Origin: Apus apus
Lineage: Eukaryota > Chordata > Aves > Apodiformes > Apodidae
NCBI RefSeq assembly: GCF_020740795.1
Contig: NC_067287.1
Location: forward strand, 12,353,501-12,417,500
Direction of reading: 5' to 3'
DNA length: 64,000 nucleotides
In this document: positions 14,539 through 47,700 of the stretch, in pieces
Layout of the letters: every line of letters starts with the position of its first letter
How positions within the stretch are numbered: the first letter of the stretch is position 1
Program-made: the position numbers and the translations under genes
Notes under the pieces: generated by a model
Told to the model about the DNA's origin: nothing
The model's input: the letters and a program-made list of their open reading frames with translations, nothing else
The model's database searches: none

Positions 14539-14733
14539 ATGGAGCCCAGTATGGAGTACTGCTTAGCGCAGGTGCTGCAGAAGGATGTTGGAAAGAGACT
14601 TCAAGTTGGCCAGGAGTTGATAGATTACTTCTCAGATAAACAGAAGTCACATGATCTTGAACACGATCAAACTATGCTGGATAAAATGGTTGATGGACTT
14701 GCCACTTCTTGGGTGAATTCCAGCAATTATAAG
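14539..14733 (+). CDS. CLASP1: CLASP1 exon 2 coding part, residues 1-65
   Basis: 65 codons from ATG to AAG, ending at the donor AAG|GTAAGA (phase 0). It encodes the start of TOG1: QVLQKDVGKRLQVGQELIDY near residues 11-30 and LATSWVNSSNYK at the end. The start is chosen because it matches the known CLASP N-terminus and has a strong context. An in-frame TAA lies six bases upstream. Confidence 0.96.
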
Positions 14734-20700: not shown

Positions 20701-23700
20701 ACAGGCTCTTGTTGGGATCTGAGAGGCTGGTCAACACACAGCAGGCTGAACCATTGTGGGTACTAAATTGAGATGATAAAGCTATTCCTTTAATGCTGGT
20801 GTAGTGTTTCAGTTGCAGCACTTCGGTGCTTGTCACTAGGGTTTGTTCAGAGGTTTAACACAGTTCCCTGGCTCTTGGGAAACCTTGAATGTATTACTTG
20901 GCTGCAGACTGAGGGTCACAGCTGATGCATTGGTGGAAAAGGCAGATTATTGGGGATTTATTTCTGTGAGGATAAGGGTAAACTAATGCTGTTGTACAGT
21001 GCCTTGTTGAGCTCTTCTGTGGCATGTGTTGTATAGTTCTAGTTGTGTGTCTGCAAGGAAGGAATTCAAGCTGGAACAGGTGCAGGGAAGGGCTAGTGTG
21101 GTGTTTGGGGGGGTTGGAGAGCCAGCCTGGCCAGAGGAGACTAAAAGTTTGGCTTGTTTGGTTTACAGTATGAAGGTTGAGAGGGTATACGACTACTGAC
21201 TATAAATACATCAGAGGGGTGAACATCAGGGAGGGGAAAGAACTATTAGAGCTAAAGGGCAAGGTTAGCACAAGAACAAATGGGTATAAACTGACAGTGA
21301 GTAAATTTAGGATGGATGTGAGATGAAAGTTGCCTGCAGCAAGAGCACTGAGGGTCTGAAAAACTCTTAGAGGAAAAGATAAGAACAAGGCAACAGTTTG
21401 GTTTTAGGGTAGGTCTTATGACAATTATGAATAGTTTATATTCTATACAGAATAACAGGATTATGTACAGTGATAAAGTTCATTTCAGTCCTTTGCTTGT
21501 ACAGTAGAATGGGTATGACAGTGTCTGAAACTGCTCTAAGTGTACTGGCTTTGATTTTTTGAAATTCCAAAGTGACTCAGAGGCTCTTCATGTTATGCCT
21601 GAGGATCATGTTCCTGTTACCTCGGTTGGAATTAGCAGGCACTCATGCATATGTGATCCAGCTCTCCTTGTTTTTAGTAGGTAACAGGGTGAGTAGGGGA
21701 GAATTCTCATTTGCCCTGACATTCTGACTCCTGAGGATCACTATCTGAACTGGAGGTTAATTGCAGTGATGGGTTTACAGGCTTCTGGATTTTTTGCTAG
21801 TCTCTAGATGGCTCAATGTAGTTAATTCTGTTGTTCTCTTGATGCTGAAAGAAACATTAGTCAGCCTGCAGGGTCCCCCAGCAACAACAGCCTATTAGCT
21901 TCTCACCTAAAAGTAGGAATGCTCTTCCAAGTCTTTTTTGTGGTATATTCCTGAAGGCATCTTGAAGGCTGCTCTGGTCTCATCCTTTGAAAAATCAACT
22001 GCTGACAGTCCTAGTGGCAATGAAGTCTAGTTGCCTCTGACTTAGTCTGGTTTTACTCAAGTTATTTTTTAAGTAGATAAGTTTTATGAAGCCTCATTTC
22101 CTTTGGCTTTTTCTATGTAGATTTGCTGGTGTTTAATGCTGTGGGTTTTTTTATGCTGAAGTCTGTCTCTTAATGGAATCTCTTTTGCTTGGTTACTATA
22201 TTTGTAAGAGCATAATGGCTTTGGGATCTCTGTTCTACCATGTTAAGTTGAAGCTTGCTAAAATTGTTACAGAAAACTGAAATCATGGAGAGATGCAATA
22301 ATATATGAATGACACATTAATAACTTACTGATCTCTTCCTTAAAAATAAGACTGAAAAATACCTGATATGTAGTAATGAAATATTACAGAAAACCGAACC
22401 CAAACAAACCAAAACCATATTCCAGTGTGTTCTTAGCAGTAAGTGCAGCTATGTCAATTTTTGGAGGACCAGCCCATGAGACTAGGCAGTCTGGTGAAGG
22501 GATACTTATTTCATTCAGATATGTGATTCTGGCTCTTGCAGCCCTTCTTTGCAGCAGTTGCATTTTGAGACTGAAAGGTAAGATTTCCTGTATAGTAGTA
22601 GGATCAGCTCATAGAATCACAGGGTAATTGGGGTTGCAAGTGCTCTTGGGTTTGTGAAGTTTCATCCACCCTATAATTGTTTAGAGTCAAGGCATTAAAA
22701 CTTCATTTCTTGTTTTCTAACAAAATTAATTAGCACATAAGTGTATTTCAGTGTCTATGTGAATCAACTCCCATATAAATGTTTTTGAGATGCCAGTGAT
22801 GGCAGTGTAGCGTTTTGGGTTTATCTTAAAAATGTTTAAGATGAGCCACCCAAGGTACTGGTGACAATCTAGCTGAGGCTCAAAGTAGTCTTATTTGTCT
22901 GCTGCTCGGCTTGCCTAGATCTACAGGTTTTCAATGAGCATATTGTTCTGTGTGAGTTTGTATAAATCTCATGTATTTGTATCCTATGTATTGTCTGCTC
23001 TGTGGCCATATTAGATGCAGGAGGGAAAGTGTGGAACACAGTGGAGACATGTAGTCTGATTTTCTGCAAGTGAACATTACCTCCCACGAATTGTTCATTA
23101 CTCTCCTCTTAGATCAGATTTCTTTTTGATCAGACAAAACCTGCTGTGTTCCTCATTTAGTACTGCTTTTGTGCCAAATATGAAACTTTAAAACAAAGCA
23201 ACATTTGAGTATTCAAGAATTAGAGCAAAGAGTCCCAGTTATCAGAGCGTACAAAGCAAGATAATTTTTTATATCATGGCTGGAAGTTTAGCCAGAGGAA
23301 AGAATGTGTAGGATTGGGCCCTGAATTAAGTGTGAGAAAGAATTTTCATGCCTTATAATGCTTTTTCATCTCCAAATGTAGTTTGTTGAGAGAAGCTTGT
23401 AGAAACAATGAGCAATTTGGTTTGCTATATCCCTCTTGATGTTGGCCCTGTCCAGGCGGGCAGGACGTGCGCACAAGTGCGAAGTCTGGCAGGATCTGTC
23501 TTTGAGATCTGGAAGCATTGTGAGGTTAACTGTGGTGTTACCAGCTTGCCAGGGTAGAAGTGTTTGTGCCTGTCTGCTCGTGATTGAGAATCTGGCAGTA
23601 CCAAATGGAAAACCCAAAGTTACTTCTCAGTGTATTTTGAAATTATACTGTTTGAGTAATATTTGCATTTACTGTGAATTGTATGTTAGAAATCAACTCT

Positions 23701-26700
23701 TTCCGCTAGTTGTCTTAGTTCTTTGTGTCTGTTAGAACCATATCTTATTAAAAGGCAGTATTTTTGCCTTGCATTGTCATGACTCCATTTGACTAATATC
23801 AAGTGACATGGTAGTGTTGGGTCTAATTGGAAATTTAACTGCAAATGGAGGCATCCCTGCTAATGCAGTGATGTGGAACAAATGTCTGCTTTTAGCAGCT
23901 TAGGAGGACTTAATGTCTCACTATTGGGAGCTTAAATGAAAGGGTTGCCACTTGTTTAGTGCTGTTTAAAGCTGTATGTTACAGGCTTTTACTGTTGTAT
24001 GCCTATCACCAAAGTTGTCTGATGGAGCCAGACCTGTTAAGAACCCAATTTCTGTAATAGCTTCATAAATATAAAAAAGTCTAGCCTTCACATCAAAATA
24101 GTGTACCTGAATTTTGGAGAGAATTCTGTTTGCTCTTAGTTGATGGAGTTGGTCCAATTGCACCAACTTAATTAAACCAAAACTCCCCAATGGACAGTGT
24201 ATCTGTGCAGGTTATCTGTTTTAATTAAGAGTGCTGTGGGCAGAATGATCCTTGGACAGATGCTGGGGTACACTCCTAGCTTTTTATATTAAGATTCTGG
24301 AGAAGATAGTTGTGAACTTGGTTTAACTGAGTCATTCAGAGGAGCACTGTGGTGGTGTATCCTGAGGAATGAAGGGTGCCACTCATACACTGCTATTATG
24401 TGCATGGCTGGTCGTCTTGACCTCCAAAAAGAATTTCTCTCACACTGCTTGGATGTTGTGTACAAAGTAGAAACTACTCGAAGGTTTTAGGAGGTACCTG
24501 CTCTTACAGATTGGAATGTTTTTCTTTTGTCTGACTGGCTAAAGCTTTTCTTTCAGGCCTGCATAGGTGGCTTTCCTGATAGTCTGTCTGCCTGCCTCTT
24601 CTATCTCCTGTCCCTTTAGGTGTTTGGAAAGTTGTTACCTGTATAATGTTGCTGGACAGTGAGTAAGTTATGGGAGTAAGTGTGCTTGTGGAAGACTATC
24701 AGCTCCAGTCCCTGTCTAGATCTGAGCTTTCTTGTAATTTTTAAAGAGCTCTGCTTCTTTGTTGCTTGGGCCCTATTATCTCTGGGCAATTTAATCTTTC
24801 CTTCCAGAATTTCCTGTTCTAGTAAGTGAGCTTACAATTAATAAGAAACTTTTTGCAAGCAGAGGGGCATGTACAAAGAAAGGGCAGTGGTTCTTGTTTG
24901 GAAACTTGCACCCAGAAGTGATGTGATGGGAACTGGTATTAAAGATGAACGGGAAGGCAGGAGCTGACATCTTGGGCCAAATAACAGTGCTCTTGGAGGT
25001 AGAGAGATGAAAACCTCAATGTGTGGAAATGCTAGAGAGGGGTAGGGGTTTGGAGAGGATCATCCTAGCCAAGGTAACAGGGTAAGACAACTCCCTCTAC
25101 AGCAGTCATGACAGAAGTGGGGCTGAGCTGGAATATTTGGCAAAGCTGGAAGGGGCAGGATATGTGAAAGTAGAAAAGTGACCTACTGAAAACCACATGA
25201 GAACTTCTAGCTGTTTAGGACAGATGGAAAAGGCTGGATTTTAGGTCTGCATGAAATACTTCAAGGTGAGACTTACTATATGTGAAAGGTATCCTTCAAG
25301 TTCCTAGGCAGGGAGAGATCTTAATTGAGTGTTAGGTACTAGCATGGTCTTTTCTCAGCTGCTTACCCTTCACTGTGCTATCATTGAGGTCTTTGGGGCT
25401 GATGGTAATTGTTATCTTACAGGCATCTTTCAAAGAGTTTTCTGGTGGCTGTTTTCAGGAGGAAGCGGTGTGTGGGAATTGTAGCAGGAGAGTGCTGTAG
25501 TTGAGGCAAACACAGATGAGCAAGAGTTGGTTACTTTTACTGAATATAAGTAATGTGAAAGGTGCTATGAGGGTTGTATGGGTAATGTGTTTGTCTGTGG
25601 AAAACAGGTTTCTCCTGATGTAGTAGTGAAATCATCTAGGTCATGTGAGTCTTACAGGTTCCACGGTTCTTTCAGCTAACATAAGGGAGGGAAATTAAAT
25701 GAAACTTGACTTAGAGAGGAGAGGCAGGATGAATTGCTGGAGTTTGTAATTGTTGCTCTGTGTGGATACTCCAGACTCCTGTGTTGTTTTTTTCTGTTTT
25801 TAACTGGAATCCAAATTTATTGCTACTGTTTTGCAGGAGTGCATTTAAAAGCTGTGCTTGGGATGTATCACACACTTACTGAGGAAGTCTGGGGAGCTGT
25901 GTAAGTGGCCATGTCTCAGAGAACTAGTTGTTGTGCAGATGGGATAGCACTGGTGGTTCAGGAGGCCTGGATAAAGCTCTCTGGGAAATCTGAGCAGATG
26001 TGTGAGAGCTGGAGAAGAAGACAGCTGCTGATCTGAGGAAAGATGGGGATGTGGGGGAAGGATGAGGGTGAGAGACTCTGCTTTCCCTGTGGGGAGATAC
26101 ACAGTAGTGCATGTCATATGGCAGTCTGAGAGGAACAGGGCAGGATAACAGGTTCTGGTGTGCCTTTTTAAACTAGGGTGAGGTAAGCACAGGCAAAGAA
26201 GAGTCTAAGGGCAGGACTTTGAGCTGGTGGTCATCAGGGTGGGAGGTGAGCCAGAAACAATTTCTGGGAGGTCAAGGAGATTACTAGAGTCTGTTTATCT
26301 TCCTTCTGTTTACTTAATTGCTCTCAACAGTTGTAGTGACTGGTATCTTTAAGCTGAGAGGGTGGAAATGAAATGTGTTACTGGAGGTTGCTTTCTGGGG
26401 ATCAAAAAGACACTTGTGATAAGTGAGAGCAGCAGTTCTGGTAAGTGAATGTATGCCAGAAAATGGCTCTGCAGCTGAACTTGGCTGAGCAGCTGAAGCA
26501 AAAATGCTCTAAGAGCTGCCTTTTTCTAATCAGGAAAGGTGGGGTAGGGTTGGAACAATGGGAAATCTGGTAATTAATTAGCAGCCAGATCCTGCTGCCA
26601 TTTTCAGACAAATGCCAACTGATGCAATGTGCTGCCTAAAGCATCCAGAGATGGGATGTAATTTTGGATGAACACCAAAGCTAATGTAGGGGAAAAATGT

Positions 26701-29700
26701 GTCTGAAGTTTTAGTTTTAACTCTTGAAATGCTTGTAATAACATCTATGCTGGTGTTACTTGAGTGCATATTAATATGGATTAATTTCCACTTTAAATCT
26801 GTTTCTTAGGGAAGTTTTTATGTGGGAGACATTCCTTTGAGGCTAATGTTTGATAATGTTTGGTAATGGGGGGGAACTAATCTTGTTTACTCTTCTTGTT
26901 ACAAAAGAGTATGAGATTGACATTTAAGATTTTCCCACTACCCCTATTAAACCTTTTGAATCTTGCTTCCTTGTGATCATTTTTGTGGTTTTAAAGTAAA
27001 AACTTCGTTAGTCTTTTATTGTCAACTGTGAATTTCTATCAGAAGTTTTTATCTTTCATGCCAGTTACTGTGGCATTGTGTGAATGTGGCATCTCTGAAA
27101 TATGCTGTTTTGTATAAAGCGTTTACAAAGTAGAAGATGGTAAAAAAATTCCCGTGCTTTTGCTAATTTTTATACTGCTGCAGGAATTGATAAGAGAACA
27201 ACCCAAGCCTTTTCTGGTTGTTTGCAGTCTGGCACCAGTTTCCCACCTTTGGTCTTTGGGCCATGTGGAATTAAGATTGTTTAGGGAGCTATAAAAGATA
27301 ACTTGAAGAAAGTGAGGCTGTTGCCTATGGGCTTACATTTGCTCTCTAGAGATCCACATCTGTACTAGAAAGTATGTAGAAGGTGGACATTTCAGGAGCT
27401 TGAAAATGATTGTATGTGAATCTTGAGGTGGGGAAGTCCTTTTTTGGCAGATAAGAAAAATATCTGACTTTCTGCATGTTACTGTGGTATATGCCATGTT
27501 TGTTTCTGTAACAAAAAATAAGTTGTTGGTCAGAATTCTTCATTCTGATCTTTTCCCTTTATTTGATTTGAAAATCTTAAACCAGGTTAAGCCCTAACAC
27601 TACTCCAGAAGAAACTGTTTACTCACAGAAAATAATTGGTTTCAGTGCAGGAGGAACTAGTTGGGATTTCATGACCTGTATTGCATAGAATTTCAGAATA
27701 ACTGACCTATTGAGCCCCTTCTGCTTCTAAAAATCTTTTATGGGTGCAAATAACGTAGGGCAAAGAGATCATGGTCTTTGCTGGCTGTGTTATTTCATGT
27801 AGTTTGATGATAGGCAGATAATGCTGTTTTCAATCAGGTTTTTCCTCTCATCCTTGTTTCATTTGTCCTTCTCAGATCAGTGGTATGAGAAGGATGTTCC
27901 CTCTTCCAGAAAATACTTGTTTCTGCATTTGGTTATTTTGGAGGAAGCTTAGAATCTCGTTTTACTGGAATTGTTGTTATAGGTTGTTATAGGTTGTTAT
28001 AGGTATACATGTAGCTGAGAAGAGCAGCTGGCTCACCAGCATTACAAGCTGGATTGTGATTTGGAATCCAGGCTTTAGTGAAGGAGAGTCATTGCGCAGA
28101 ATGTTATTTGCTTGAGTCAGTGCTGGTTGATTCACCAGAGTGGTTGTCCCTGATCAGATTTGTAGAGGGTTACTGTTCTGTGGCAAACAGCTAAGAATGA
28201 GGTGTTTGGAAGAGTCCATAAGAAGATAGTTGATTGTCCTAAGACCTGCTGTTGGGTCCAGATTCTTGCAAGAACTTGAGGTGCATTCTGCTTCCTTTGA
28301 ACTGGGGGCTGAGGCTTGGCAAGGATTGAACCCAAGTAAGGCTGAAAGGGGTCCATTGCCATGAGATCATAATCTCTTTCTTGCTGACAGGTTCAGTGTT
28401 TGTGGATGACACACTTAAGGTGCATATGGATATTGTTTTCATCTTTGTACCTGTCTGTTTTACATCTCTGCTGTTCAGTGCTCATTTTGGGAACAGTTGC
28501 ATACGTGAGATCTTATTTTTTCTTTTATCTAGCATCAAAAGATTAAAAAGAAACTTGAAAAGAAGCATATGCTCTTCATTTGACTTGCACAGCTAATTTT
28601 TTCCTTAATGCAGTGAGCTCCAGGTTTGATAAAAGCAAGTTTGTGCGCATGCACCAGGAGTCCTCAAGGGGAGAGTTGGGGAGGATAAAGGTTTCCAGAG
28701 GAACTGTAATATCCTATTTTTTTTATAGTCTTTTGTTAGTAATGAGCGGTAAGTGATATGTCTGCACTATAGACAGTTGAACCTCACATTAGTCTTTATA
28801 TAGTTTTCTAGGCCTAGTGGATCTTGGACTGTGGTTATGTCCCAATGCCTTGTATAGTGACTTCTTTCAGCAGGGACTCTGTCTAGAATATTTGGGTTGA
28901 AGCATTTAATGGATTCCTTCAGAGCAAGTAATGCTGTTTGATGTTTGATGCCTAAAGCCTTGATTAAAACTATTCTGTGTATACAATTTCCTGGAATTTC
29001 TACTTATTAGGAGGAACCCTGTTCTCCGCTGATCTTGGAAGATTTGATTTAGAAATATTTAATGCATATTTTTTGCTACATTTACTGTAAGTAGTTGGTT
29101 TGGAGATTCATTGCTTTTTCTGATTGGCATAGTTAATAATACACGTATCCCAAAATCTTTGATGCTAGATCAAAAGAGAGAAAATCATTTTGGAAGGAGG
29201 AGATTAATATAAATTCTGTTGTACTCTTCATCCAAAAGGATCTGGAATTACTTTTCATATGAACAGAATGGCTAAACTCATCATTGAAGCTTGCTGTTGT
29301 ACCTGCTTGAACAGTGAGCTTGGCACAAATGGATTGTTTTCTGTCAAGGGAATTGTATTGCTTTAAATACTGATGCCATGTTCTTTAGTCACCAGACATT
29401 AAGGCTGAGGTTGTATTTAGTTCCTAGTTCACAGAAAAAGTAGCAAGGCAATCCTACAGGGAAAATTTGGCAATGGGCTAGTGAATTGTAGTACTCCTTG
29501 GCCTCTGAACTAGTAATTGGGCTGCCAGTGGAGTGTGGAGCAGGTCTGGAAGCTCAGCCCCCAGCACATGGAATGAGTGGGAGAATGACAGCTCTCACCT
29601 TGGGGCTGTGCTAGAGGATAGGGCCCTGCTGCACCTGATGTCTTGCTGAGCTGTCCTTGTTTCAGTCGTGCTGGTCCTGATGGCCATGTGCTCCTGTGGC

Positions 29701-32700
29701 AGGCAGGTGTCATAAGTTCATGGTAGCTAGGTGCCTGCCTGATGTCCTTCCTCTCTTTACAAGCAGAAACTTGTTCTGATTCTTGCTGGCAGCCGGAATG
29801 GTCCTTTGCTGTGAGATACAATGTTTTCCAAACTGTGTTAGCAGACAGTCTCCTCTTTAATTAAAACAAAAGCAAAACAAACAGTAAAAACAAGGCTAGA
29901 CGTGAGTTAAGACTGTGCTTCTCTCTTGTTTCCTTGGACTTGATTTGAAGTTTTCCACACAGTATTTCTGGAGTTACAGAAATAAGCCCTTGTGTAACTT
30001 GGATATAAAGTGTTGCAGCGTACTTGCAGTGTACCCTGCTCCCCTTCTGCCCTCTGAATGGAAAAGAAAATGCACTGAAGTTATGGGTGCTTGCCGAAAC
30101 AGTAGTGGAGAGGTTCTTTCTCACTGTCCCCTGCTTCACGTGAAGAAACTTTTCCTTCTCCCGTTTGCTTCACCAGCAGTTGCATTAGTTAGCTTGGCTA
30201 ATGGCTACATTGCTCTTGCTCTGCCTGCAGTCTCTGCCCTCCACAGCTCTGGCCAAAGAGCCCAAAGCTTTTGTGTACCATGCTTGTGTGGTAGCTCTGA
30301 TTTGACTGAACACCAGAGCCTGGCATGTGGTGTTGTCACCTCCATTTGGAGGAAGAGGTGCATAACCAGTCTTAGGAAAATGCTTGCACCAGACATGATG
30401 AGAGGGAGCCCACCTCAGTCTGCATGACTGAATTAGACTGGCAGGGAAGGGAACTTGGTAGTAGAGAGGAAATCCCTGGATAATTTTCACACTTAAGTTT
30501 CTGTGAAGCTATAAGTCACTCCCAAAAGAATGGAGACTGCTCCACAAATTCCGGTTGAGAAGAAAAATTCCTTGCTATGTGCAAGAGAGGCTGGATGGTT
30601 TGCTTACTAGTCTTGCTGCTTTAGAGGTAAAAGCACGATTAAACTACTGTAGGTGGGTTTTGTGTGCATCTAAAGATTACTATTACAAGTTAGATGCCAT
30701 TTGCCTGGATTGCTGAACTGTGAGCAGCTGAGTGGGAACTGGGTTTCTGCTTGTGAACAGGCTTGCTGGGAAATCAGGTGCCCTTGCAGGCATTATCTCC
30801 AGGGGAAAAGGTGTTTTCTCTCTTGCTTGTATATTCAGGTGCTCTAGCTAATGCCACATGCAGATGCTTCTTCTTCCAGATTAATGTTGTCTTGTTCCCC
30901 CAGGTCTCGAGAAGGCTATTTAAAGAAGGGAGAAGTGTATTGGCAGGATTTGGTTGCTGAGTCTTGTCTGTTTACTCCAGCCTTCAGACTACTGCATTGA
31001 ATTCCCTCAGAAGCTGCAGTAAAGGCTTAGTTGCTGCTGAGCTGGTGGCCTTAGCAGCAGTTAATTGCGATTATGCCTCCAGTATTTTGGGCTCTTGGGA
31101 AATAACTAGAGGGCAGAGCCTTACCATTTCCCCCTCCCTGAATGTATTGCATAGTGTAGGTATGAAAGAAGAAAGCTTCTGTTGTAGATCTCTGTTAGCC
31201 AACTAGTTCTGCTCCCAGCCTGACCTGTGAAGGAGCTGTGTGGATTTTGTTTAATGTCAGTTTAGAGGAGAGAAATAATGAAGAATGGCTAATACTGAAG
31301 AGCCTGCCATTGACTCTTAGCTTGCAGCAAACCCTTCTTCCTTCTTTACTTGCTGAGGCTATAAAATAGAGGTGTTAATGACAAAATCCAGGTTTGAAAA
31401 CCACAGGTCTGTACCACAATGAGGGTTTTCTGTGTAGGAAGTCAGAACAGCAGTCCAGCGTATTTGCAGGGTAGCTCATGAGAGTTTTTTGTACCTTGCA
31501 GACATCAGCAGACTTTTCTTGGTATTTCTGTCCCACTTGTAGTGTTTGCAGGCAAAAAGGAGACACTGCCCCTGCCGGTAGCCTCCTGTTCTCTGTGATG
31601 GAGAAAGGAAGAAGACACACAGTTCTAGCAGCAGTGCAGAGTGGCCCACTTGCAAATCTCTAGCCCTTTTTGTTTGTATGTTTTCAGGGGAAAGCTCTGA
31701 AGAAAGTGTTGGAGCATTCAGGGACTACATATAGCTTTTTAGGAAACCTTAACCATGAGCTAAACTGTATTTTCTTCCCTTGTGGTTTTAAGATGAATGG
31801 GTATTGCAGTAAAGTGATACAAGTGCTACATGTTAATGTGTACAAATAGCCTCTGGTAATGAATGTGTTTTGGTGGTCTCTGCCTTTATGGTATTCAGGC
31901 TATCCATAGAAAAAAAAGCTCCTGAGATAAGGTTTTAAAATAAAGTTTTTGTTTCCAAGTAACTTTTTTCCATTTTTTCCCCTCTTTTTCCTGTTTCCAG
32001 TACTGTTTAATATCTTCACTTGTATGAGGATCAGCGAGTCTGTTTGCACGGCCTAGGAGCACAGGTTGTGAACCTCACAGCTTGAGTCAGGATATGTACG
32101 AGGCTCATTCTTCATGCAGGAACTGGGCTGTTGCAGACTTGGGTTCAGCTGACAGCTCTGCCACTGGCTGGCAGCATACAGTGTCCAAGTGTATAATGTC
32201 TTTCCTTCTTCTTGATTCTCTGTTCTTTTGGGAAAATATGTGCTTATTAAGTTCAGGATACTGGTTGTGTAAGGCCATTGTAGTGATTTGAAACTGGGAG
32301 CTGATATCAAGACCTGTAGCTGGAGAAGGATGCCCAAGTTAAGATCAGCTTGTTTCTTACCCACTCCAGAGCCAACAGCTAAGGATGATGTGTGAGTGCT
32401 TCTCAGCATAGACCTTGCCTTGAGGTTTCATTCAGTGGTGGATCTCAACTACATAGAGGGAAGACACTTAGATATTGTAAAGCTTGGGAAATAATGAAAA
32501 TTCCCTTTTTGACATACTTTTGTACAGTTCACTTTAAACTTGTCCCTAATGAGCTAAAATACTATAAGCCTAAAGTGAATTTTATATTTGAGTGGCCTGC
32601 GGACTTTTTTTATGAGGTTTAGCTCACTTAGTTCTATAAGTGGGTTCAATTTAATTGCAGAAAGGCTGCTCTGTGTTTTTTCTGACTTCAGTCTTGCTGT

Positions 32701-35700
32701 GGCAGAGCAGCACAACTGAGTCACAGTGAGACTGAAGCTGGTACAAAGTATGCTGAATAACTAACCTTGATCCCGTTCATGTGGTGTCCAGCATGTGTGG
32801 TCTGTGAAGTTAGATGTATGGGGTTATTAGAAAACTGTTCTGAATAGCCCAAAGTTTATTAGGACCTATTGTTTGCTGTTGAATAATGAATGTCAAGTAT
32901 GAGGAATTTTATTGGGTCTTGGACCAGCGCAGCGCAATAGAATCCAAATGCCTGCTTGCATCTTGCTTGCGGGAAGGAGGAAGCTCTTTCATGTTCTCTG
33001 TGAGTGAGCACTTGCCTAGCTTACTCTGCCAAGAAATCTCATTACATGTATGTTTCATAATTTTTAAAACTGAACCCAAAATAAGTTTTTTGTCAAGAAA
33101 ATTTTATTTGTGTTTGTTTAAGTTGGTGTCATTGGTGTAGTGCAGGGAAAGAAAGGATGGCTATGGTTTGGGTGTCAGAAGAGGGAGTCTGAGGTTCAAC
33201 TTAGCCTTTTAGTGCTTTGTGGTTGTACATAAATCTTGAGTTAAGCCAGTGTTGGAAAGTTTTGTTAACAAGAGTGTCAACCTTACCCTGGGGAGTAACT
33301 TGTAATTTATGTCTACAGTGGATTGCTAATAAAAGTCTATTGTCAGTTTGCCTTCTATTGTTCACAAAGGATGTTTACCAACTAGTAACGTAAGTTACTT
33401 TGCTGATACTGTATTTCTAGGCAGGGAGGAACTTTTGAGGCTTTATAGGTATTGTAAATAAGGGACTTCAGGAAATAGTTAAATCCAGTTTCTTGTTCAC
33501 AGAAGGCAACCAGATGTCTTCTGTCAGATGTTAAATCCAACCAATGGTTAAAATGCATCCTGTGAAAATTGCAGAGCCTCCTGAATTAGTCTGTTCCAGT
33601 GCCCTTCTGCTCTTCATGCTTAATTTCCTTTCTAGCTAATCTAACAGGTTTTCTCTTTTATCCTTCTGAAGGATATAGGAAAAGTTGATCACCACTCTTG
33701 TTCAAGCCCATGCTAGCAAAGTCTCTCCAGTGTAGTTTCTGCCAGAGGCTGGTAGTTTGTGCTTTGTTCTGCAGTGCATTGGCAGAATTTTGTCTGTGCT
33801 AAGTATCCTCTAATTGCTAGATCTAGTGTGATTCCAGGATAAGGGCACACTGTTCTTTCATCCCAGAAAGGTGATAAGTAATTGAAGGGTGGAGAACAAT
33901 CAGCTCCCTGGCCTGTAGATAGAGCTGCTCAAGGGCAGAGGCCTTGCTTATGCCTTTCTTAGACTGAGGGATCATGTGCCGTTGGAGGTGCAACACTTTC
34001 ATTATTGAATTAAGGAACCTGCTAAATGAATCTTTAGCCATTTTACACTAGCTGCCCTGGCTTCTAGCTCCAGTTCTGTGTCAGTGTCATTAACAGAGAT
34101 GTGGGAGATAGGGGATGAAGCTTTGAAGACTTTGTAGGCAGAGATACTTGTGGTCTCTAGAAAGGCACAGCATGTGGCAGGGAAAAGAGCACGCTGGCAG
34201 ATGGGAGTGAGTGTAGCTACAGTCATATCAAGGAGACAGCATTGTGAAGCTTTGTGCTGTGGTAGACAAGAAGGTCACAATGTTGATTTGTCACCCTGGG
34301 TAGGAACTTCTGCTGTGATCAAGAATGTGATGATATGAATTAAAGGCATTTCTGGGGAAGGGGATCAGTAGAAGATGGTAGAATTGATCTGTGTGCACAG
34401 AGAATTTTGCTCTTGGAGATAGAGCCCAAGTCAGTCTCCTCTGAGTGAACTTATTGCATTTACAGCCTGGAAAGAACAGTGGAGAAGAGAAATGTTCTTG
34501 GAGGCTTGCAGCAGAAGAGTCCTGGACAAGTCAGTTGGGCTGTAGTTTTCCTTGGTGGTCATTGTGCTTATAAAGTGTCTTACAGCAATCTGAGATACAT
34601 GGTAGAAGTAACTGGTGATGTTAATAGTGCTTTGGTCTGTTACTGTGTATTAGCAGTATTCAGTATCCATTCCTTGATGGAGCAACCTTTTTGGTGTTCC
34701 TCCTTAGTTTTGCAGCCTGAGGAAGGGCACACTTCACGTGTTCTCTGAAGCTGATCTGCAACACACTGCTGTCTTGAGAGATGCTGAATGCACACAGGGA
34801 GAGCTTGAAAGGAGTGAACAATAGCATTTAGGCCTGCCTCAAAAGAAGTTTCTGAACTGCAGTTGTGAGCAGAAAACTGGCTTGACTTTTGCTCTTCTGC
34901 TTTAACTTGGTGGGGCTGGAGAGCTGTGGTGTCTGTCAAGCTCCCTCCTAAGCATGGCACATGCTGGGCTTGCTTTTTGCTTAGCTTGGTTGTGTGGCAG
35001 CTATGTTCAGGTAGCAGGGGCCACAGAGATTTGAAGTTAGAAATCCTCCAGCCATGGTCTGACAATTACTGCTAGGTTCTTCTGTAGGGCCTTTATCATA
35101 TAAACCTGTCTTTCCTTGGACTTAACGAAAACCCAGAACACTGAAGGTATGAGAGGCACTGTTGTGATAGGGCCCTGATGGGAAGTGCAAGTATTGGATC
35201 CTACTTGAAGTGACTTTCAGGCTTTTACTGGGTGGGCACAGTAGTAAAAAACATTCTCTGAAGTCTGTTTAGGCAGGATGTAATTTGTAGTAGAAAACAG
35301 CTTACCCCTATGTTGCTTTCTGTCAGCTGGCTGGGTTGTTGGTTCTCCACTCCAGAGGGCTGAATTAAGATCTCTTCTGATGTTGTTTGTTAACCTTCCC
35401 AGGCTTAGTGCAGTTTGCCAACTGCTGTCAGCTCAAGTTGCAAGTGCTCTGGGTAGAGACAGTTCAGACCCAGAGATGAAGAAGACCTGACCAACGGCTT
35501 GGGAAGCAGACCTGGGAGCCTAATCCTGGCTCTGCTGTAGGCCTGTTTTGTGGTGCTCAGAGTCAGCTGGGAGTGTACCAGTTTCTCTGTAAAGTTGGAC
35601 ACAAAACCTCCTTTTGTCCTTGCAGAGACAGTGTAGGCTACAAGGGTGCTATTTGCCTACATGCTACTTTACACAGGCAAAAAGAACAATACAATGGGTG

Positions 35701-38700
35701 TTGGTTACTATTATATCCCTTCTCAAACCATCCTGATAAGGGATTTTAGACTAAGTTCTGAGGAGCAGGGACTTAGGTTGTTTTCCATGGATATTTTGCC
35801 TGAGACCTTGTGTTTCTTGCTGGGGATAAAAGCAAACTGTTTATGCTGCCAGATCCTGCCTTCTAGTTCTAATAATCTACCGATCAAGGAAAATTTTAAG
35901 GAAAAGTAATGCAACTGAATCTGTCTTGCAAAATAAAGTTTCTGCTCTCTTGGGTTATTTAACAAGTCACTTAAAAAAATTGTCAAGGCATATGTAATGT
36001 TAGCACATACCCAGGCAACTCTTTGGTCTACTAAATAGATCATATGATCTTTAAATTAGCTTAGTAGCTAAAAATCTATTTCTAGAATTATTTTTTCCCT
36101 ATCTAATACAATTTAGGTGACCTTTAAGGTCTGAGTTAAGTCATCAAATGGTAGAAGTATGCAGTGACTACAGCTTCCCCTGTTCTGTTTCTGGGGAGCA
36201 TGATGTTAGTGCAGACAGCTGGCTTCGGATTCTGGGTTTATGCTAGTCTGATGGGTCAGAATCTGGCCCACAGCAGCAAATCTGAACTCCTTGCCTTTGA
36301 TTAAAAAGTCAAGATAAATCAAAAAACAGTGCAGAGCCTGCGCATCTCTTGCAGTCCTTTAAAGAAAAGAGTTAATGAATCTTCTCTGTACTTCTGTGTT
36401 GCTTTGTGTTTGTGGCATTATCTTTGATGTTTGAATTGGAAGTCAAGGAATAGAATGTATATATGTGATCTCAAAAAATTTCAAATCCTTTAAAGGATGG
36501 AGGAGAAATACCTTTAAATGGTGATGTGAGTGTGCAAGTAGCTCTGTATGGTTTTTTTTTCCCCTGCATATATAGATAGATTTCAGGCTGAACTTCATTT
36601 GTAACTGGACTGCATGCTGGCACAGTCCCAACACTGCAGGCAGATGTGTATGAAGTAGCCAAATAATACTTTCCAACATACAGACTGTACTGCTAGACCT
36701 CAGTGTGACAAGTTTATGATAGTAATAACATTCTGTAGTTCCAGATGAGGATATGAAAGTTCTTGAAAAAAACACTAGCTTATATTTACTATCTTACTAG
36801 AGTGCAGGGAAGTGCAGTTAGCTTACAGAGATGGAGGGTAAGAACAGATGTAACTGTAGCTGGATCCCCCTCCTAATCAGTTGGTGGTATTTGTTTTGTG
36901 GAAGATTTAGCAACTGATGTAGTTGCCTTTTCTTACAACATGTGTGCAGAAACCAGAAGCAGCAACTTGATCTCTAACCTGCACCACAATCACTGGTATC
37001 AGGAAAGCATGTTATGTTTCTTGGTGTTATCCTCAGGCATCATCATGTCTTAACTCCTCTTTCTCTACATGTTGTTTTCTAGTCTGACATAGCTACTATC
37101 TGTGAAACTCAATCTCCTGTTCTTCTGAAATACTGTCTGCTGTAGACTGTAAAAGACTTGGAGGCAGCTATCCCTCTTCCTTCCTAAACAAAGTTGCTGT
37201 TGACACGGACTGATAGAGTAGTAATTGGAACCTATCACTGTGTATAACTTTGAACTTTTTAATTTTATCAGATTATGTCAAGTTAAACAAACCCTTGTAG
37301 ATAAATAAGTCAAAAACCCATTGCTGTTTCTTCACTGAAAAGAGTGTACCAAGTCCTGCTATGGCTGGAAATACTTGAACTTGACATGTATGTGCTGAAT
37401 TTACTACCTAATCCATGTCTCAGGTCCTTTATACCTTCATGAAAGCCTATTGAAGTCCAGAATTGTCATGGATCAGATCACATAGCTGGAGATTATTTGT
37501 AGAGCAGGATTTAAAAAAAATACTATCAGTTCTGCTGTTTCACAGTGTGCCAGTAAGATCATATTGTTAGTGACACAGAAGTTAGTTTAATCAATTCATG
37601 AATTGACAGGGCTGCTTCTAGCTAGAATATACAAAACTATTTCAAGATTAATGAACATGTGAAGTCAATGACAGCTTAAGTCTTATATATTAAGAATCAA
37701 ATCAAATGCTTTGTAGAATTGTGACCAACCTGGTCTAGTTTTGAGCAGTGGGGTGGGTGTAGTGTTGGACTATTTGGTCTCTGGAGATCCTGTCTAGCCT
37801 GTTTTTATTGGTGGGCCCTCTTCTTATGCTAAAGAGCTGTTGTGTCTTTTTATGCTGTGCAGAATGTGCAGGAGGGCTGGATGGAATGGGAGTAAACATT
37901 CTGGCATCCTTTTCAGGGCAGGTTAACAATATCACATTATCTTGTCCACCATTGTGAGTGTGGTGTTTCAGAATTCACAAGACACCAGGTCTTGGTTCTG
38001 GGAGTTCTCGGAATGACTGCTTCCCCTTCTGTCTAAAAGATATTGCTTAATACTAATGGGGCACTTCAGTTTTGAGTAGTTGCCTCAAAGTCAAGTAACC
38101 ACTTGTCAAATTGCAGCAGGAAGGCTTGCACGACTTTCAACCTGTATGAAAAGAAAAAGACAGCATAGGACAAAGCAGTCTCAAAGATGTGAAGGGCACA
38201 TTTTTATAGGTCTTAGTGCTGCTGATTTCTGTTTGAGCTGTCACCTAGTCTGTGCTTTCAAAAACTCCAACAAGCCTCCCTTAGGATCTTGAAAACAAGA
38301 CAATTAAATTCTGCCTTTGAACCTGCTTGTGGTGACGGGGGGGGTACCTGAGTCTTTTGAGTCTCTTCCATGGCAAATTACAAATATTTCTACATTTCTT
38401 AAAACCAAAACCAAATAAACCACCAAAACCCAAACCTGTTTATTTTAACTAAAATAAACAATTTGAATAATAGCTGTTCCATTCCCCTTCTGAGGTGAAA
38501 TGTGACCTGCATCCAGCAGGTTACATTTTTTTCTTCAAGGTTATTTTCAGTGTTGCTTCAAGTTTCTGCAGTGTTGGGGTGAGAAAAGCCCCTCCCTCTC
38601 TGAAACACGACGCAGCCTCTTTTTTTGCTAAGGTATATTAAAATTCTTAAGTTTTCACGTTTTTTTAGTGTGCTGTGCTATTAACTGCTTGCATAAATAT

Positions 38701-41700
38701 AAAGTATATCCTGTTGAGCAGAAAGTTAGGAGGCTGTTTTTGATAAAAAGTGAGAGCAAACAACTAAGACAATTATAAAACAAGGATCTTTAAAATCACA
38801 ATAAAACTGGGTATTGAAACACTTGATTCAGCTTACCCTTTGTGTTGAAAATGATGATGTGAGTTGTGAAGGAGAGATAAATGTAGTAAAAACATTGTGA
38901 AAGATGAGTAGAGCCTGTCCTGGAGGTACCTGCCTCATCTGTTTGTGCTTTCCCAGGGTGTCAGCTGTTTGTGTGCCCTGTGCTGAGCTGAGTAGTTTCT
39001 TGTATTTCATTTAAAGCTTCTGTTCCTCTGATGTACTTCAGTTTGATTTCCATTTAAGATAATTAACCCAAGAGCTAATGATTTAGTTGAACATTTAATT
39101 ATTTTTTTTTCTTGTATTAAACCACAAGAATTTGTGGAACCTCTATATGTGAGGGATGTTTGTTTATGTAGTTGCGGTGCTAGACCATCAATAGGAACTA
39201 TTTGCCCGACTTGCTTAAATGTGTTTTTTCGAGCTGGATATAGAAGCCAAAAGGTACGTGGTTTGTCCCTATAATTTTCCAATTGGTTTTCCACTTGTGC
39301 TCTCAGTTGCTCAGATGGCTTGTTGTTTGTTTTTTTTTCCCTTAAGAAAATGCTGGCTCCTTCAAGCAATGCAGCATGAAGAATTCACTTTTCTTCCCTT
39401 GAAGTGTTTGGTGTTTTGGAGTGTTGGTTTGTTTAGGTTTTGGGCCATTGTCTTCCTGCAGCTAATGAAGGCATCTTGTACCTTTCTTTTTCTCATTGGA
39501 GTTCTCCTCTATGATTCTGTGTTTCCTTGTTGTACTATTAGGTCCTAGTGGTTTGTGTCTGGAGACTCTTCTCAAGGGTGTGGGAGCATATGGTAGATGC
39601 TGAGCAGGCAGTCTGTGCAGGGCTGGGAGCTGCTGTGAAAAGGTCCAGTCTTTGGGTGTTTCCAGAGTTTTGCAAAGGCTGTGGCTGCTGAAAATACTAT
39701 TGCACTCTTAATTCCATGTGTTTTTTTTCTTACCAAACAAGGCAAGAATTAAAGCTTCATTAGCTGTGATCTAGCCAGAGATGTTAGCACCTGGTAATTA
39801 CCCTCAGTCAGCTTCTGTTGACTCCTCACCACAGTGACTACTTGGCCTCCCTTGAGAGTTCCTCAGGTTTTGTTTTTTTTTTCCACGTTACCAGCAGCTA
39901 GTGGGTCTTGGCTGTGTTTACACCTATTTGATGTCCTCCTCACGGGACTGTCCATGCAGTCTGTCATCACTTTGCAGGATTGCCATTCCTCATAAAAGCT
40001 TATAGTGTCTGGTGCTAGTGGTCAAGGGGGGTAGCTGGGTATTTGAGCATCCTCACCTCATCCTCTTGCCACTCTTCTGGAGCCCTAAGGGAGCAGAGAA
40101 CACTGTGGGTGATTACCTGCTATGTTGTTTGCCTTGTTTTAGCCAGATGCTGTCTAAAACCTCAGAATCACTTCTTCAATTTAAAAATGTCCTGAGCACT
40201 TTCTATTCTTGTAGGTGTTGGAGATGGCATTGGGCTCTGAGGTGCCCCAGCTAATATAGTTCTGCCTAAAGGTGGATTACCAGTGCAATTTGTTTTTTTT
40301 GGCTTTCTCTGTGCACTGTAGCAGGGTTTTGCCTCTAATGGAGGGAAAAACACTTTTAAAAAACCAATCTGGCCTGTTAATAAGGCATATGGCTACACTA
40401 GCAATTTACTAGTTGTCATAATGAAGGCTTGCAGTTTTGCCATGATAAAAGCTTTCAGTTTTCCCAAGAAAATAAAGCAGGGCATTGGAATAGCTTTTTT
40501 CCTTTCCCTGACATTCTTGTTGCTTTTCTGTAAGAGATCTTAGCACTTATTCTATGATGCTTCATTTTGCCTTTGGGCTCCTGAGATGCAACTTGTCCCC
40601 AAAGCTACAAGCTCATTCAAGGATGTGGTGGTCCTGAACCCCAGGTGACACACACAGGTGTGATCTCATCAGTGCTCACAGAGCTACAGCCATTTTTCCT
40701 TAATGGCCGAGGACTTGGCTGTAAGTGTAAGTGCTCAGCTGGGGGCAATGGAAATGTACAGAACGGTGGCAGTGTTTGTGACTAATGTGTTTAACAGCTT
40801 TGTGGTGAGGAACCAAAGGCTTCAGCAGTTGGTAGTGCAGGTATTTTCCTTTTGATGTTGCTTTATGTGAAGACACAAAGCATTGAGTACATGCTATGCA
40901 GGTATCTATATCTGTAAGGTGCTGCAAAACCAGGACTACCTTTCTGAAACAATGTTTGCTGCTGATGATTTTCAGGAGTGCTTAGGATAATTCAGCCAGG
41001 AAACTGGTGTAAATTGGGACTCTACCTTTAACTGCAAAGTCTCCTGATGTATTACCATGAGTGCTGCTTCCCTGGAAGCTGAGCATGGACTGTGGGGAAG
41101 GAAGAGCAATGCATATCTGGATATACTGCTAGGAGAAAAGGTCTTCAAGCATGAGGTGGAAGAGACAGGGAAAAGGGATACAGAGATGAAAGCTGATTTG
41201 GGGTTTAAATCCTGCCAGGTCTGTTGAGTGTGCTGCTAGTTGGATTTTCTGCACAGTTACGTGCTGTAAGGAGCCTCTCTGTGCTGATACTTTCCAGTGT
41301 ACAGGATCTGGTGTACCTGGTATTGCGTAGAGTAGTTCCTTGTTCTGGGCAGAATGACTGGCTGTATAGGAGGGCAAAAAAACCTTCTGAAAGGTTTCTA
41401 TAGCTCTTTCCCCTTCCTTCTAAATCCAAAATGGATGTCTAGCTTGTCCTCAGCATCTTAAACAGAAGAAAAGTCACTGCTGTGTTTGAAAATTGGAGTT
41501 CCCATGATGATTAGTTAAATTCTCTAAATCTCACAAATCTACAAATCTGTCTATAGGTTATGAGAAATAAAAGGGGTATTTTTGCCCCAGGAAGCTGCTC
41601 CAGGAGATTGTGGTCTTGGTTCCAATAGGAAAACTTACATGGCCACACCAAAAGCCACTCTTTTGAGACATTGCTGTATTGAATGACAAATCAATGACCC

Positions 41701-44700
41701 AGCATTCAGAATTGTTCATGAATTTTGAAGGTGATGTCTGAGACAGAATGGGTGGTATCTCATGGGTGTAAAGAGAGAACCCAGGAAGAACTATTTCAAG
41801 TCTTCCCTTGCTCAGCTGTTTAACCACAGCTTGTAGTCATGCCAGTGAAACCAGTTGTATTGCTGTTGCTGCCTCCTTGTTTGGTGTTGGTTTTGCAAAC
41901 TGTGTTTTACAGAAAAGCTCATATGACCTGTCTGTAGTGGGATTGTTGGGCAACTCAAGTTGCCAGTGCAGATGTGGTCCTGCCTTGAAACGTGAAATGT
42001 TGGCTACTGGAACAGCAGAAGGGGATGGACTTCTCCAGGATGAATGTAGTTCTATTTGTGTGCAGATGGAATACAGCAGTCATCATTTCATAAACTAATT
42101 TCATGTTTCTTTCCCTGATGGGAGTTGTATTATTGCTGCTGTACTGACCCAAAATACCTACCCAATTTCAAAACTAAATTTGCAAATGTCAGCTAATTTT
42201 AGCTCTTGCTTGGTCTTGAGTGTCCAGCTCAGTTACAGTGGATGTTCTATGTCTTGAGGAATTAGAACTGCTTCCTGTCTGATTAGTAGGGGTCATCAGG
42301 CAGTGATGTGGGGCATCAGTGCTGTGTCAGTTTTCTGAATGTGTTCTTTTGAAGCTGAAGTGTTCTTTTTCACAAATCTGCTTCCTTGGTGAGCATTTAC
42401 TGCTAGAGCAGATGATGGTAGGCTTTCTGCTTTCTGATACATGGAGCTGCTCTGTGATACATGGAGCAGCCTACAAGCCTTTCAACACCACCCAGGTATT
42501 AAAGGACAGATGCTTTGAGTTTTTTGAATGAAGTTTTTTTTTTTTATGACCTCTTAAAAAATAGTATCATCTGTCCTGAGAAAGGCTTTGTTGCATCCTG
42601 GGAACTAACTAGAACCTTTTTACTGGGAATGATAGTGCCTTTAGACCTGGCAGCTGGAGTGAGGCAGCAGAAGGGCTTGCTGACAGCCCCATGGAAAGTA
42701 CTCTGAGACATTACAAATTAGCAGCAGATGCCAATTGAGCTGAATACTGGATGGCACAAATTGCTTTATTGACTGTCTTGAGGAACCTCAGTGTCAAATA
42801 AGCAAAGTACCTGAGCTGCAGACCTGTGGCTGTGCCACTGTGTTTCTGCAGTGGGCTTGGGAGACCAGAGATGGCTCTTTTAGGAGCCTGTGTTAAGTAA
42901 GGGGATAAAAGTAGCAGCTCCTGCCCTGGTATTGTCTTGGTTGAGGGTTGGGGGCCTCTGTGCTACTAGAGTTACTGGTGAGTTGAGTCCTGCCTTGCTT
43001 GAAGCGTGAAGCAAAGACGTGCTCTGATGTAAAGGCCTGAAATAGCTCTGTAGTTATCAGCACTGCAATGTTATCTGAAATTTTGGATGGAGAGTTGCCC
43101 TTCCTGTGCCTTTGTGGAGTGGTGCCTGCCAGCTGGCTTTCCTGGGGAGGGGTGTGCTGCAAGATCACAGCAATGGGCTGGCTGCTGACAGGGCCTGTTG
43201 CTTTTCCAGCTCTGCCTCACAGTCTCCCTGCTTTTGAGGTGTCTCCTGGTCATACGAGTGTGTTAATTCCAGCAGAGCTTCCATAGCTCCTTCGGTAGTG
43301 AACTGAGGTGTGCTCTGAAGTGCAGTCAACCCAATGCAGCAAGGGCTGGAATTCAATTCATGTGTCATTCATTTGCCAGTCGTGCCTCTTGGGTTTTCTG
43401 TTCTCTCTGAGATCCAACAGATCTGTTAATCCATACACTATTTCAACTTTCCACCTTTGACCTTTGGGCAGCTTCAGAGGCAGATGGCACATCAGGGTTG
43501 ATACATGAATCCAGCATGGAAGGAGTAACATCTGGTCACCTCAAGTGTTTGTTTCCTCGATAGCTTTCCAAGCCACCACTGTAATCACGGTGCTAATTAG
43601 TTCTCCATTTCTATAAGCACAACAGCAGAAAGTCTTGGGAGGCTCAGCTTATCCTGGGGGCAATCTGCAGGGTAACTGGCTGTGTTTGCACTGCGATGGT
43701 TTCATTTAATATTTCAGTGATGTGTTCCTCTCGCTCTTTCCAGCTTGCAGGCAGTTTGAAGAAGAGATGCATCCCTTCCTCTCCCGGGGTTACGTTTATC
43801 CCCAGGGCACCCCTGTAATTGCAGGCAGCTGCAATACACTTCTTCATGCAGGATGCTGCTGTGATGGGGCTCTGATCAGACAGCTGTGAAGGATGGCTGG
43901 TGTTCAGAGTCCCAGTGACTTTTCTTAACAGCACCTCTGAGCTAATGAGGATGTAGAGCCTGTCCTCTTGCTGGGGTTCTGCTGCTGGAGCCCAGCCTGG
44001 AGGAGCCCAGGGAGCTGGCAGGCAAGTGGCAGGGATGAAGGCTTCAGGCAGCAGGGTCTGGACCTGGCCAAGCATTTGTCACTGGTAGATTAAATCCGGT
44101 GTGCAAGATGAATGTGCAAATGACACACAGCTTATAAAAGCATGGGGAAAATTCTAGCTTGGCCTGTGGGTAGAATCTAGACCTTGTTGGCAGGCTGCAA
44201 ATGGTGTTGAATTAGAAAAGTGACATGATTGAAGGCTCTGTTGCTGTGTTTGGAGGATTGTTAGGAGAAGGTCAAGTGGTATGTTGGGAAAAAGTCAGGA
44301 TCCAGGTGCTTTGATGGTGAAGCTTCTTTTTAGGAGGCTTGATATGGAATAGCTGCTTCCTCTGCACATCGTTCTTGGCTCCCTTGCTGCTACAAAGCTG
44401 AATTTGGAGTGAATCCATAGGGCAGGATGAGGGGTGGAGAGCTCGGGTTGCGGACCAACCGGAGGAGGGTAGAGCAGCTGCGGCGGCCAGGGCAGCCTCA
44501 GCGGGAGGGAGGGAGGGTTGGTGAGCGGGGGTGCTGGAGGAGGCGGCAAGGTCGGTGCGGACAGCGGCGGGAAGCGCTGCTGCCCCGGCAGCGGGCGGCG
44601 TGCGCGGGGGTCAGCGTACGGGTCAGCGCACGCCGCGCCGGGAAGCGGCACTAGGACAGACACGGGTCCACCCGGACCTGCCGTGATCGCATCGCGCCGG

Positions 44701-47700
44701 GCACGCGGTGCGGGGTTCCAAAAATTGCGCCTCGCGCAAGGCGGGCGCGACTGTGTTGTTGCGGTGTCAGCAGGGCCGCCCTCGCCAGGCGCTCATCGGG
44801 CGGCCGCGCACCCCCAGATAAGGACGGTTGGCGGACCGCCGCGCGCGCCGCCGCTCCAGGAGAGCCGACCGCGCTCTAGGTGCAGGCGAGGGGCGGCCGC
44901 GCCGGCGGGCCCGCTGTCCCCCCGCCTGGCCCGGGCCGGCGCTCCGCTGCGTCGGGGCACGGAAAGCGGCGTTTCTGTCGCGGCTCGGGCTCCGTTTTAA
45001 GCCTTTTTTCGGCCGTGGCGGCTCTACCCAGAGTGCTCTGCGCCTGCCGGAGTGTATTTGCATAAGTGGGTGGGCAGCCGGGCGGTGGCGGCGGCGGAGC
45101 GCGCCCCCTGCCGCCCGCCCGTGGTGCTGCACCGCCCCGCCAGCTGCCGCGGCCGTGCCTGCCTGTGTGTGGAGATACATACAGACATGTATATATACAT
45201 ATAGGATGTGTATACACACGTACACCTTCCGCAGGGAGCGGGGCTGACAGCCCTGGTGACATGGCCTCAGAAGCCTGGCTGTCTGTAGCGCTCCCAGCAG
45301 TTACTACCCTCAGCACCTCACAAAAAACCTGCAGAGCTGTCTTGTACCAGACTTATGATCTGTAGGGTCTCCTCGAGTACTTAGTGCACGAGCTACACTG
45401 TATATTCAGTATACAAACCATTTTTTTGTGGAGTGAAGCAAAGTTAATCAGTGGGTTTTTTGATCTGTAGCCTCCTCAACTGAAGCTCCTCTCCCACTGT
45501 TATTCCCTGGGCTTCAGTTATGTCACACAAGTATTTGGTTTAATTTCTACAACTGAATAATTAGGCAGCTGTTAGTACACATGATTTTCTAATTGTAAGT
45601 TTAATAATTACAATAAACTATAAATGTTAGCTACAGCAAATACTGAAATTGTTATTCATATGCTATGTGTACGTTGCACATACATATGAATGAATTTAGC
45701 ACTGAGCAGCAATTACAGTCATTGGATTTGTCAAGCTCTTGGCAGTGAGTTTTGGCTTGTAAATCTCACAGGGAACGATCATTTGGGGACTTTTCTGTTT
45801 GCAAAACACTCTGCTTGTCTGTCAGAAGCCGTGCAAAGAGGAGCTCTCTGTATCTGTGCACCCTGTTTACCTGGGTGAGCGCTGCTGACAGCGTGGGTGA
45901 GAAGGGGCTCTCTTGGGTGCACTCTCTGAGGCCAGGGGCAAAGGGCTGCAGGCTGAAACACTGTCTGTCCTGTACCTGCAGGTGGTTCTTCTGGGGATCG
46001 ACATCCTTTCGGCGCTGGTGTCCCGCTTGCAAGATCGCTTCAAGGCCCAGATTGGCACAGGTAAGGGCTCTGTGTGTGAGGGGGGATGTCACTGTGGCTC
46101 TGCTGGGATCTGCTCTGGCTGCTCTATACCAAGCCTTCTTGCTCCCTGCTTTGGAGGCTCTTGGTGGTTTACAGGCTCTGCTGAAGGTCAGGAGGGCTGG
46201 TCCCTCCATTGGGTGAGGGAATGGTAGAGGGGCTGTGCTGGTCTGAAAGTTTTCTTCAGAGGGATTTAGATGTTCCTGTTTTCTTTCTTCAGTGCTGCCA
46301 AGTTTACTTGATAGGCTGGGAGACTCTAAGGACTCTGTGAGGGAGCAGGATCAGACCTTGCTGCTAAAAATCATGGAACAAGCTGCTAACCCTCAGGTAT
46401 GTTTGACAGTCCTTTGCAGTGTGAGTGACTGCTTAAACTTTTTTCTGTCAGAGGGTTTTCTTCTGGGGCTCTGTCTGATGGCTTCATCTCCCTATGCCTT
46501 GGCATGAGATGTTTCACTTGAGAATGCTGTTGTGTGTCAGGATACATGTGGGACTGTGGAGTTCCCAAGTATGGGATGGATGTATGTTAGAGTAGCTGTT
46601 CTGGGTCTTTAGAAGGTACTTGCTTTCTGTAAGTAAACTGTTGTTTTAGCTAATGGGGAGTTACTGCAGAATCAGCACAGAACAAACAATTACATCTAAA
46701 AATGTCTTTCTGCTTCTTGTCCTGTTCTATTTGGACGGATGTAAAGGTCCATGTCTGCTGGAAGAAAGAACGTCTCTTCTCCCACCTCCTTTTTTCCTGT
46801 CTCACCATGTTTGTCTTCCACAGTACGTGTGGGACAGGATGCTCGGAGGTTTCAAACACAAGAATTTCCGGACAAGAGAAGGGATTTGCCTCTGCCTTAT
46901 TGCAACGCTCAATGCGTAAGTCAGAACCTCCTGTAGACCCGTGCTATGTACACCAGCCTAGTTTGGATCTCACACCAGTGCCCTTCTGTTCTTTATTTCC
47001 AGATCTGGAGCTCAGAGTTTAACACTGAGTAAGATAGTGCCACATATATGTAACTTACTTGGAGATCCAAACAGCCAGGTAAGCTTCTGGTGTGAGTCAC
47101 TTGTAAAGGTTGTGCTGATTTGCTTTTGTGGGTAAGTGTGGGGCTCTGTGTTCTGGCTGGTAAATCAGTTAGATGTGCTGTTGGTGGTGAACTCTGAACA
47201 ATGCTGTTTATGAAGAGCACTTGGCTGGTTTTGAAGAGGTATGATTTGAAGTATGTCTAAACCAGTGTATCAATTACTCTGAGTTCAACAGAGTAACATG
47301 AATATGCAGGTGAGATGAACTGAACAGAAAATGATTGTGGGAAGGGAACTCCTGTGCCTTGCAACATGAATATGAGGGAGGTTGCAGGGATCCCTCTGGG
47401 CTCAGTGCAGCACCCTTCACCTTCAGAGAAGGATCAGCCTGGACAAGGAGGGTAAATGGGATCAGTGCACTTCTAGAAGTTGTACAGGGAGATTCTGACT
47501 CAAGGGTGGAAGCTGTGTAGGAACCTTAAATCAGAGATGCACACCAAATGAAAATACATGCTGAAAAATATCTCTATGCTTTTTGTCTTGCTCTGGACAG
47601 GATCTAATCTGAAATTAGATGCAAGTATGAGAGATTACTGAGAAGACAGGGTGGGGAAGCAGGGTTCAAACTAATGTAGTGCAATTTGTGTACAAGGAGT

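Follow-up and report, generated by a model that had tools for sequence, protein, structure and literature searches.

Minor splicing requires a U4atac. Both the RNA itself and the nesting of its gene in human CLASP1 are already in print: a passage of a 2023 review has the human U4atac gene overlapping or sitting within CLASP1 (PMC10228655), and an excerpt of PMC3499247 records that human RNU4ATAC is bound by SNAPc, Pol II, POU2F1, ZNF143 and GABP. Excerpts of two further papers state that part of the human U4atac 3' stem is dispensable (PMC4667643) and list 23 disease-substitution positions in the human RNA (PMC7337319). For birds, a 48-bird Rfam survey describes U4atac as found in some species and apparently lost widely, and suggests missing data or divergence as the explanation (PMC4378963). 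A search at the level of titles and abstracts, with subscription journals mostly outside its reach, found no description of the U4atac-in-CLASP1 nesting in birds. The locus described here lies in a 64-kb stretch of avian DNA (the window), and we are highly confident that it is a functional, single-copy U4atac gene with its own Pol II snRNA-type promoter, placed antisense in a large CLASP1 intron.

We scanned the window with 4227 Rfam families, and U4atac (RF00618) was the sole family at gathering score; the same scan found no other family at E<=1. The RF00618 match lies on the minus strand at 44714-44828, covers the whole model (1-132) and scores 86.7 bits (E=2.3e-13) against a gathering cut-off of 53 bits. 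The initial annotation had called a minus-strand U4atac gene here and had proposed a covariance-model search as a check; that search returned a significant match above the cut-off over the full model, so that both the identity and the strand hold. The annotated span and its end at 44714 also stand, while the other end, 44829, adds one 5' A to the Rfam match. The gene as given here (44714..44829, minus strand) is 116 nt long and has a G+C content of 69%. It carries AACCGTCCTT, a 5' stem-loop with a k-turn, AACAACACA, a short 3' stem-loop and AATTTTTGG on the minus strand, which is to say that each of the landmarks previously named is present. The segment that pairs with U6atac as stem II occupies 44811..44829, as located by its duplex with the U6atac of the same genome, and is followed by the 5' stem-loop with its k-turn (44770..44809), which is supported by the Rfam alignment, the cofold and the compensated pairs described below. 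The cofold also places the stem I segment, ACAACAC, at 44753..44759, where it pairs with the U6atac 5' end GUGUUGU. Next come a shortened, G+C-rich 3' stem-loop (44727..44748), around which the Rfam alignment has deletions, and a predicted Sm-binding site, AATTTTTGG, at 44718..44726; all of these features are on the minus strand.

The window locus was the only U4atac place found by DNA search of the 1.10-Gb, 110-contig assembly, and an RF00618 search of the whole assembly at E<=10 (49 of the 35405 first-look candidates scored) gave a single match, the window copy. At that threshold matches also turned up in 11 of 14 control genomes, though never above the cut-off. A better intact copy elsewhere in the genome, which the initial annotation had put forward as the finding that would overturn its reading, was not found in the assembly.

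Compared with the human U4atac sequence, the gene is identical at 83 of 131 positions. The human disease-substitution positions are better preserved, with 20 of the 23 listed unchanged (hypergeometric P=0.007), and among them positions 116, 118, 120, 123 and 124, in the Sm site region, have letters identical to human. The three others are n.5, which is G here with a G-U pair kept, n.66, which is A here, and n.29, which is C here. C is the human disease allele at n.29; in this bird it is paired with G54, the human pair being U-A. Three stem pairs of the 5' stem-loop are changed on both sides relative to human, and at 26-57 and 27-56 the human U-A and A-U pairs have both become G-C. The human pair 20-63 is lost here, and 11 of 14 are therefore paired in that register of the 5' stem, compared with 12.

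We also searched the assembly with the U6atac model (RF00619). Four U6atac places were returned, at 135.5 (on contig C20), 90.5, 74.7 and 41.8 bits, all above the cut-off, with 46 of 77595 candidates scored; U4atac and the best U6atac are on separate contigs, C7 and C20. When U4atac nt 1-80 and U6atac nt 1-60 were folded together, the minimum-energy cofold was the canonical three-way junction of stem II, 5' stem-loop and stem I. The stem II duplex with the same genome's U6atac has an energy of -27.6 kcal/mol, a value reached by none of 5000 single-base shuffles (best -21.5), and the stem I duplex has -9.8 kcal/mol, which was reached by 125 of 5000 shuffles. Folded alone, U4atac does not take the canonical form at minimum energy (z -0.87, with 37 of 200 shuffles as stable); since the canonical form arose only with U6atac, free folding is useless as a test of U4atac.

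The first 50 bases of the best U6atac differ from the Rfam consensus at one position, C40 to U. The U4atac base opposite U6atac 40 is position 11, a less conserved, lower-case g in the Rfam consensus and an A here, so that the stem II pair 11-40, g-C in consensus letters (which are not an ancestral reconstruction), is A-U here and pairing is kept. We take the human letters at these positions to be U11 in U4atac and C40 in U6atac, a mismatch. Among the weaker U6atac copies, L003 and L005 have U40 as well, L004 being too diverged to tell, and the presence of U40 in these diverged copies indicates that the change is probably not recent. From pair 11-40 we think it somewhat probable that U4atac and U6atac have co-evolved in this lineage. 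With n.29C as its normal letter, paired with G54, the gene would be a natural laboratory of compensated snRNA disease alleles. As for the U6atac copies themselves, the best (L002; G000:C20:8199337-8199464, minus strand) has a PSE-like element matching 11/12 at -66 and, nearer the start, a TATA-like TTTAAATA recognized by eye, which fits a promoter of Pol III type 3. The diverged copies L003, L004 and L005 are above the Rfam cut-off and have, in the stretches searched, no exact octamer and a PSE of only 7 or 8/12; they are probably pseudogenes.

The region upstream of U4atac was compared with promoter motif consensus sequences taken from PMC5493778. An exact match to the octamer of a distal sequence element, ATGCAAAT, lies at 45056..45063 on the minus strand (-234 to -227), and a ZNF143/STAF-like site agreeing at 16 of 18 specified positions lies at 45024..45042 on the plus strand (-213 to -195); the upstream region thereby holds the combination of an octamer and a ZNF143-like site near -220 by which a distal element was recognized. 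The chance expectation of the octamer is at most 0.002 in a 41-position bracket that was set after the site had been seen, and octamers are not enriched across the whole window (2 versus 3.66 expected). ZNF143-like scores of at least 16 were obtained for 0.35% of random 88-bp window segments and for 6.45% of segments from the local island, the site itself included, and also upstream of the weak U6atac copy L005 and of the U4 gene L007, so the site alone is moderately specific. Closer to the gene, a candidate proximal sequence element (44872..44889, minus strand, at -60) has a weak score of 7/12, where the U4 genes L006 and L007 score 8 and 6, the U6atac L002 scores 11, and six probable pseudogenes (L003-L005 and L008-L010) score 6 to 9. 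The candidate proves nothing alone, because the probable pseudogenes score as they do. Likeness to the L006 element as proof of the candidate was considered and rejected: the same register gives 13/22 (60 of 10000 shuffles as good), slid registers match as well or better, up to 15/22, and the pseudogene scores apply here too. The best 3' box, about 25 bases downstream of U4atac, scores 9/12, compared with 11/12 in both L006 and L007. Taking the motifs together, we favour a predicted independent snRNA-type promoter for U4atac.

A proximal element no better than those of probable pseudogenes, a weak 3' box and a non-canonical free fold are what could be expected if the locus were a pseudogene or retrocopy with retained likeness. 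We regard this as very improbable: no other U4atac copy was found in the assembly, minor splicing is generally known to require a U4atac, the stem changes are compensated, and the upstream region carries an octamer without mismatch together with a ZNF143-like site.

The initial annotation had named CLASP1 as the host, and this is borne out. With a human CLASP1 query, tblastn gave six stretches on the plus strand that jointly cover residues 1 to ~236, and the exon at 14539-14733 matched PDB 6mq5 (CLIP-associating protein 1) with 128.8 bits, compared with 55.1 bits for CLASP2 (5nr4). This exon (14539..14733, plus strand) is the first coding exon, its coding part being M1-K65, and the second coding exon, defined by tblastn and splice sites, is at 45982..46060 on the plus strand. 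The intron between them (14734..45981, plus strand), with a GT donor and an AG acceptor, holds the antisense U4atac ~1.15 kb ahead of the second coding exon. Directly 5' of the ATG exon is a run rich in pyrimidines that closes with AG, and a G+C-rich island lies at ~1-3 kb of the window, which together point to an upstream non-coding exon; the intron is therefore likely to be intron 2, to judge from these sequence signals. The earlier designation of intron 2 fits these signals, though exon 1 itself was not located. A U12-type host intron, as a feedback link, was also considered and was rejected, the donor and acceptor of 14734-45981 being ordinary; RTATCCTT occurs in the window at chance level (4 versus 3.5 expected). 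Two observations on repeats may be added. A C-rich tandem repeat is present at 1668-1835 of the window, in the G+C-rich island by the probable CLASP1 promoter, and three matches to CR1-like 3' tails, with two mismatches each, compare suggestively with 0.25 expected (at least three in 0 of 100 shuffles), though they are too scant to fix a clade.

The arrangement of the two genes bears on how U4atac is expressed. The 2023 review states for human that U4atac expression depends on CLASP1 transcription and intron splicing (PMC10228655), which would have the RNA processed from the spliced CLASP1 intron as part of CLASP1 expression. That statement fits poorly here, because U4atac is on the strand opposite CLASP1 and the CLASP1 transcript contains only its complement; U4atac moreover has distal-element motifs of its own, and human RNU4ATAC, in the excerpt of PMC3499247, recruits SNAPc and Pol II. 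Origin from the CLASP1 intron is accordingly an extremely improbable account, and transcription of U4atac from its own promoter is the one that we adopt. A second possibility, compatible with that account, is that the antisense unit does more than produce U4atac and also regulates CLASP1, for example by polymerase collision, or that the surrounding island is an alternative CLASP1 promoter. Window positions 44001-45000 have 63% G+C, against about 40-50% around them, and this island spans the U4atac gene and its promoter within the intron; the antisense gene stands ~1.15 kb ahead of the second coding exon, and Pol II at human snRNA genes is detectable up to 1.2 kb beyond the RNA (PMC3499247). 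Nesting can, however, be conserved by itself, because an intron is a neutral home, and we consider a regulatory role unlikely. We take human RNU4ATAC to be antisense to CLASP1 as well, and it is plausible that the nesting is older than the bird-mammal split. On shared chromatin or mutual constraint of the two genes, which the initial annotation raised, our results speak neither for nor against.

Judged on sequence, the U4atac described here is real and most likely functional; as an ortholog it is ordinary, a known gene in its known place. The transcription, processing and splicing function that we infer for it would run as follows. Transcription would start at ~44829, directed by Oct-1 and ZNF143 bound to the distal element and by SNAPc near -60, and Integrator would cut the 3' end. 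The RNA would acquire Sm proteins, form stems II and I with U6atac, be bound by 15.5K/PRPF31 at the k-turn and enter the minor tri-snRNP.

Two features give this U4atac its interest, the compensatory pair between two RNAs and the human disease allele that sits in a compensated pair, and both could aid the interpretation of RNU4ATAC variants. The locus supports an intact single U4atac in a bird, a member of a group with apparent loss in PMC4378963, and the gene's G+C content and its G+C-rich island could make U4atac hard to assemble. Origin as a CLASP1 splicing product, the view given in print, is disfavoured by the strand and the distal element, and the nesting, if seen in other amniotes, would offer a fixed point for synteny.

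Set beside the described systems, the gene resembles human RNU4ATAC in stem II, the k-turn 5' stem-loop, stem I, the Sm site and its location inside CLASP1, and it has motifs for POU2F1 and ZNF143, both of which bind the human promoter according to the excerpt of PMC3499247. It differs in length (116 nt here, 131 nt in human), in its G+C content of 69%, in a much shorter 3' stem-loop, and in the letters at positions 5 (G), 11 (A), 66 (A) and 29 (C, opposite G54). The U4 gene L006 of the same genome (RF00015) has much the same distal arrangement, its exact octamer lying at -231 and its STAF-like site at -219, and at -60 it has a PSE-like element of 8/12; L006 and L007, in contrast, encode a major-spliceosome RNA, form a tandem pair and have stronger 3' boxes. 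These two U4 genes are ~650 bp apart, and L007 has a best octamer of 6/8 in the stretch searched. With the 48-genome avian Rfam survey (PMC4378963) our analysis has in common the covariance-model approach and the finding of U4atac in a bird, as the survey had in some; the survey saw widespread apparent loss of U4atac, whereas here there is one intact copy.
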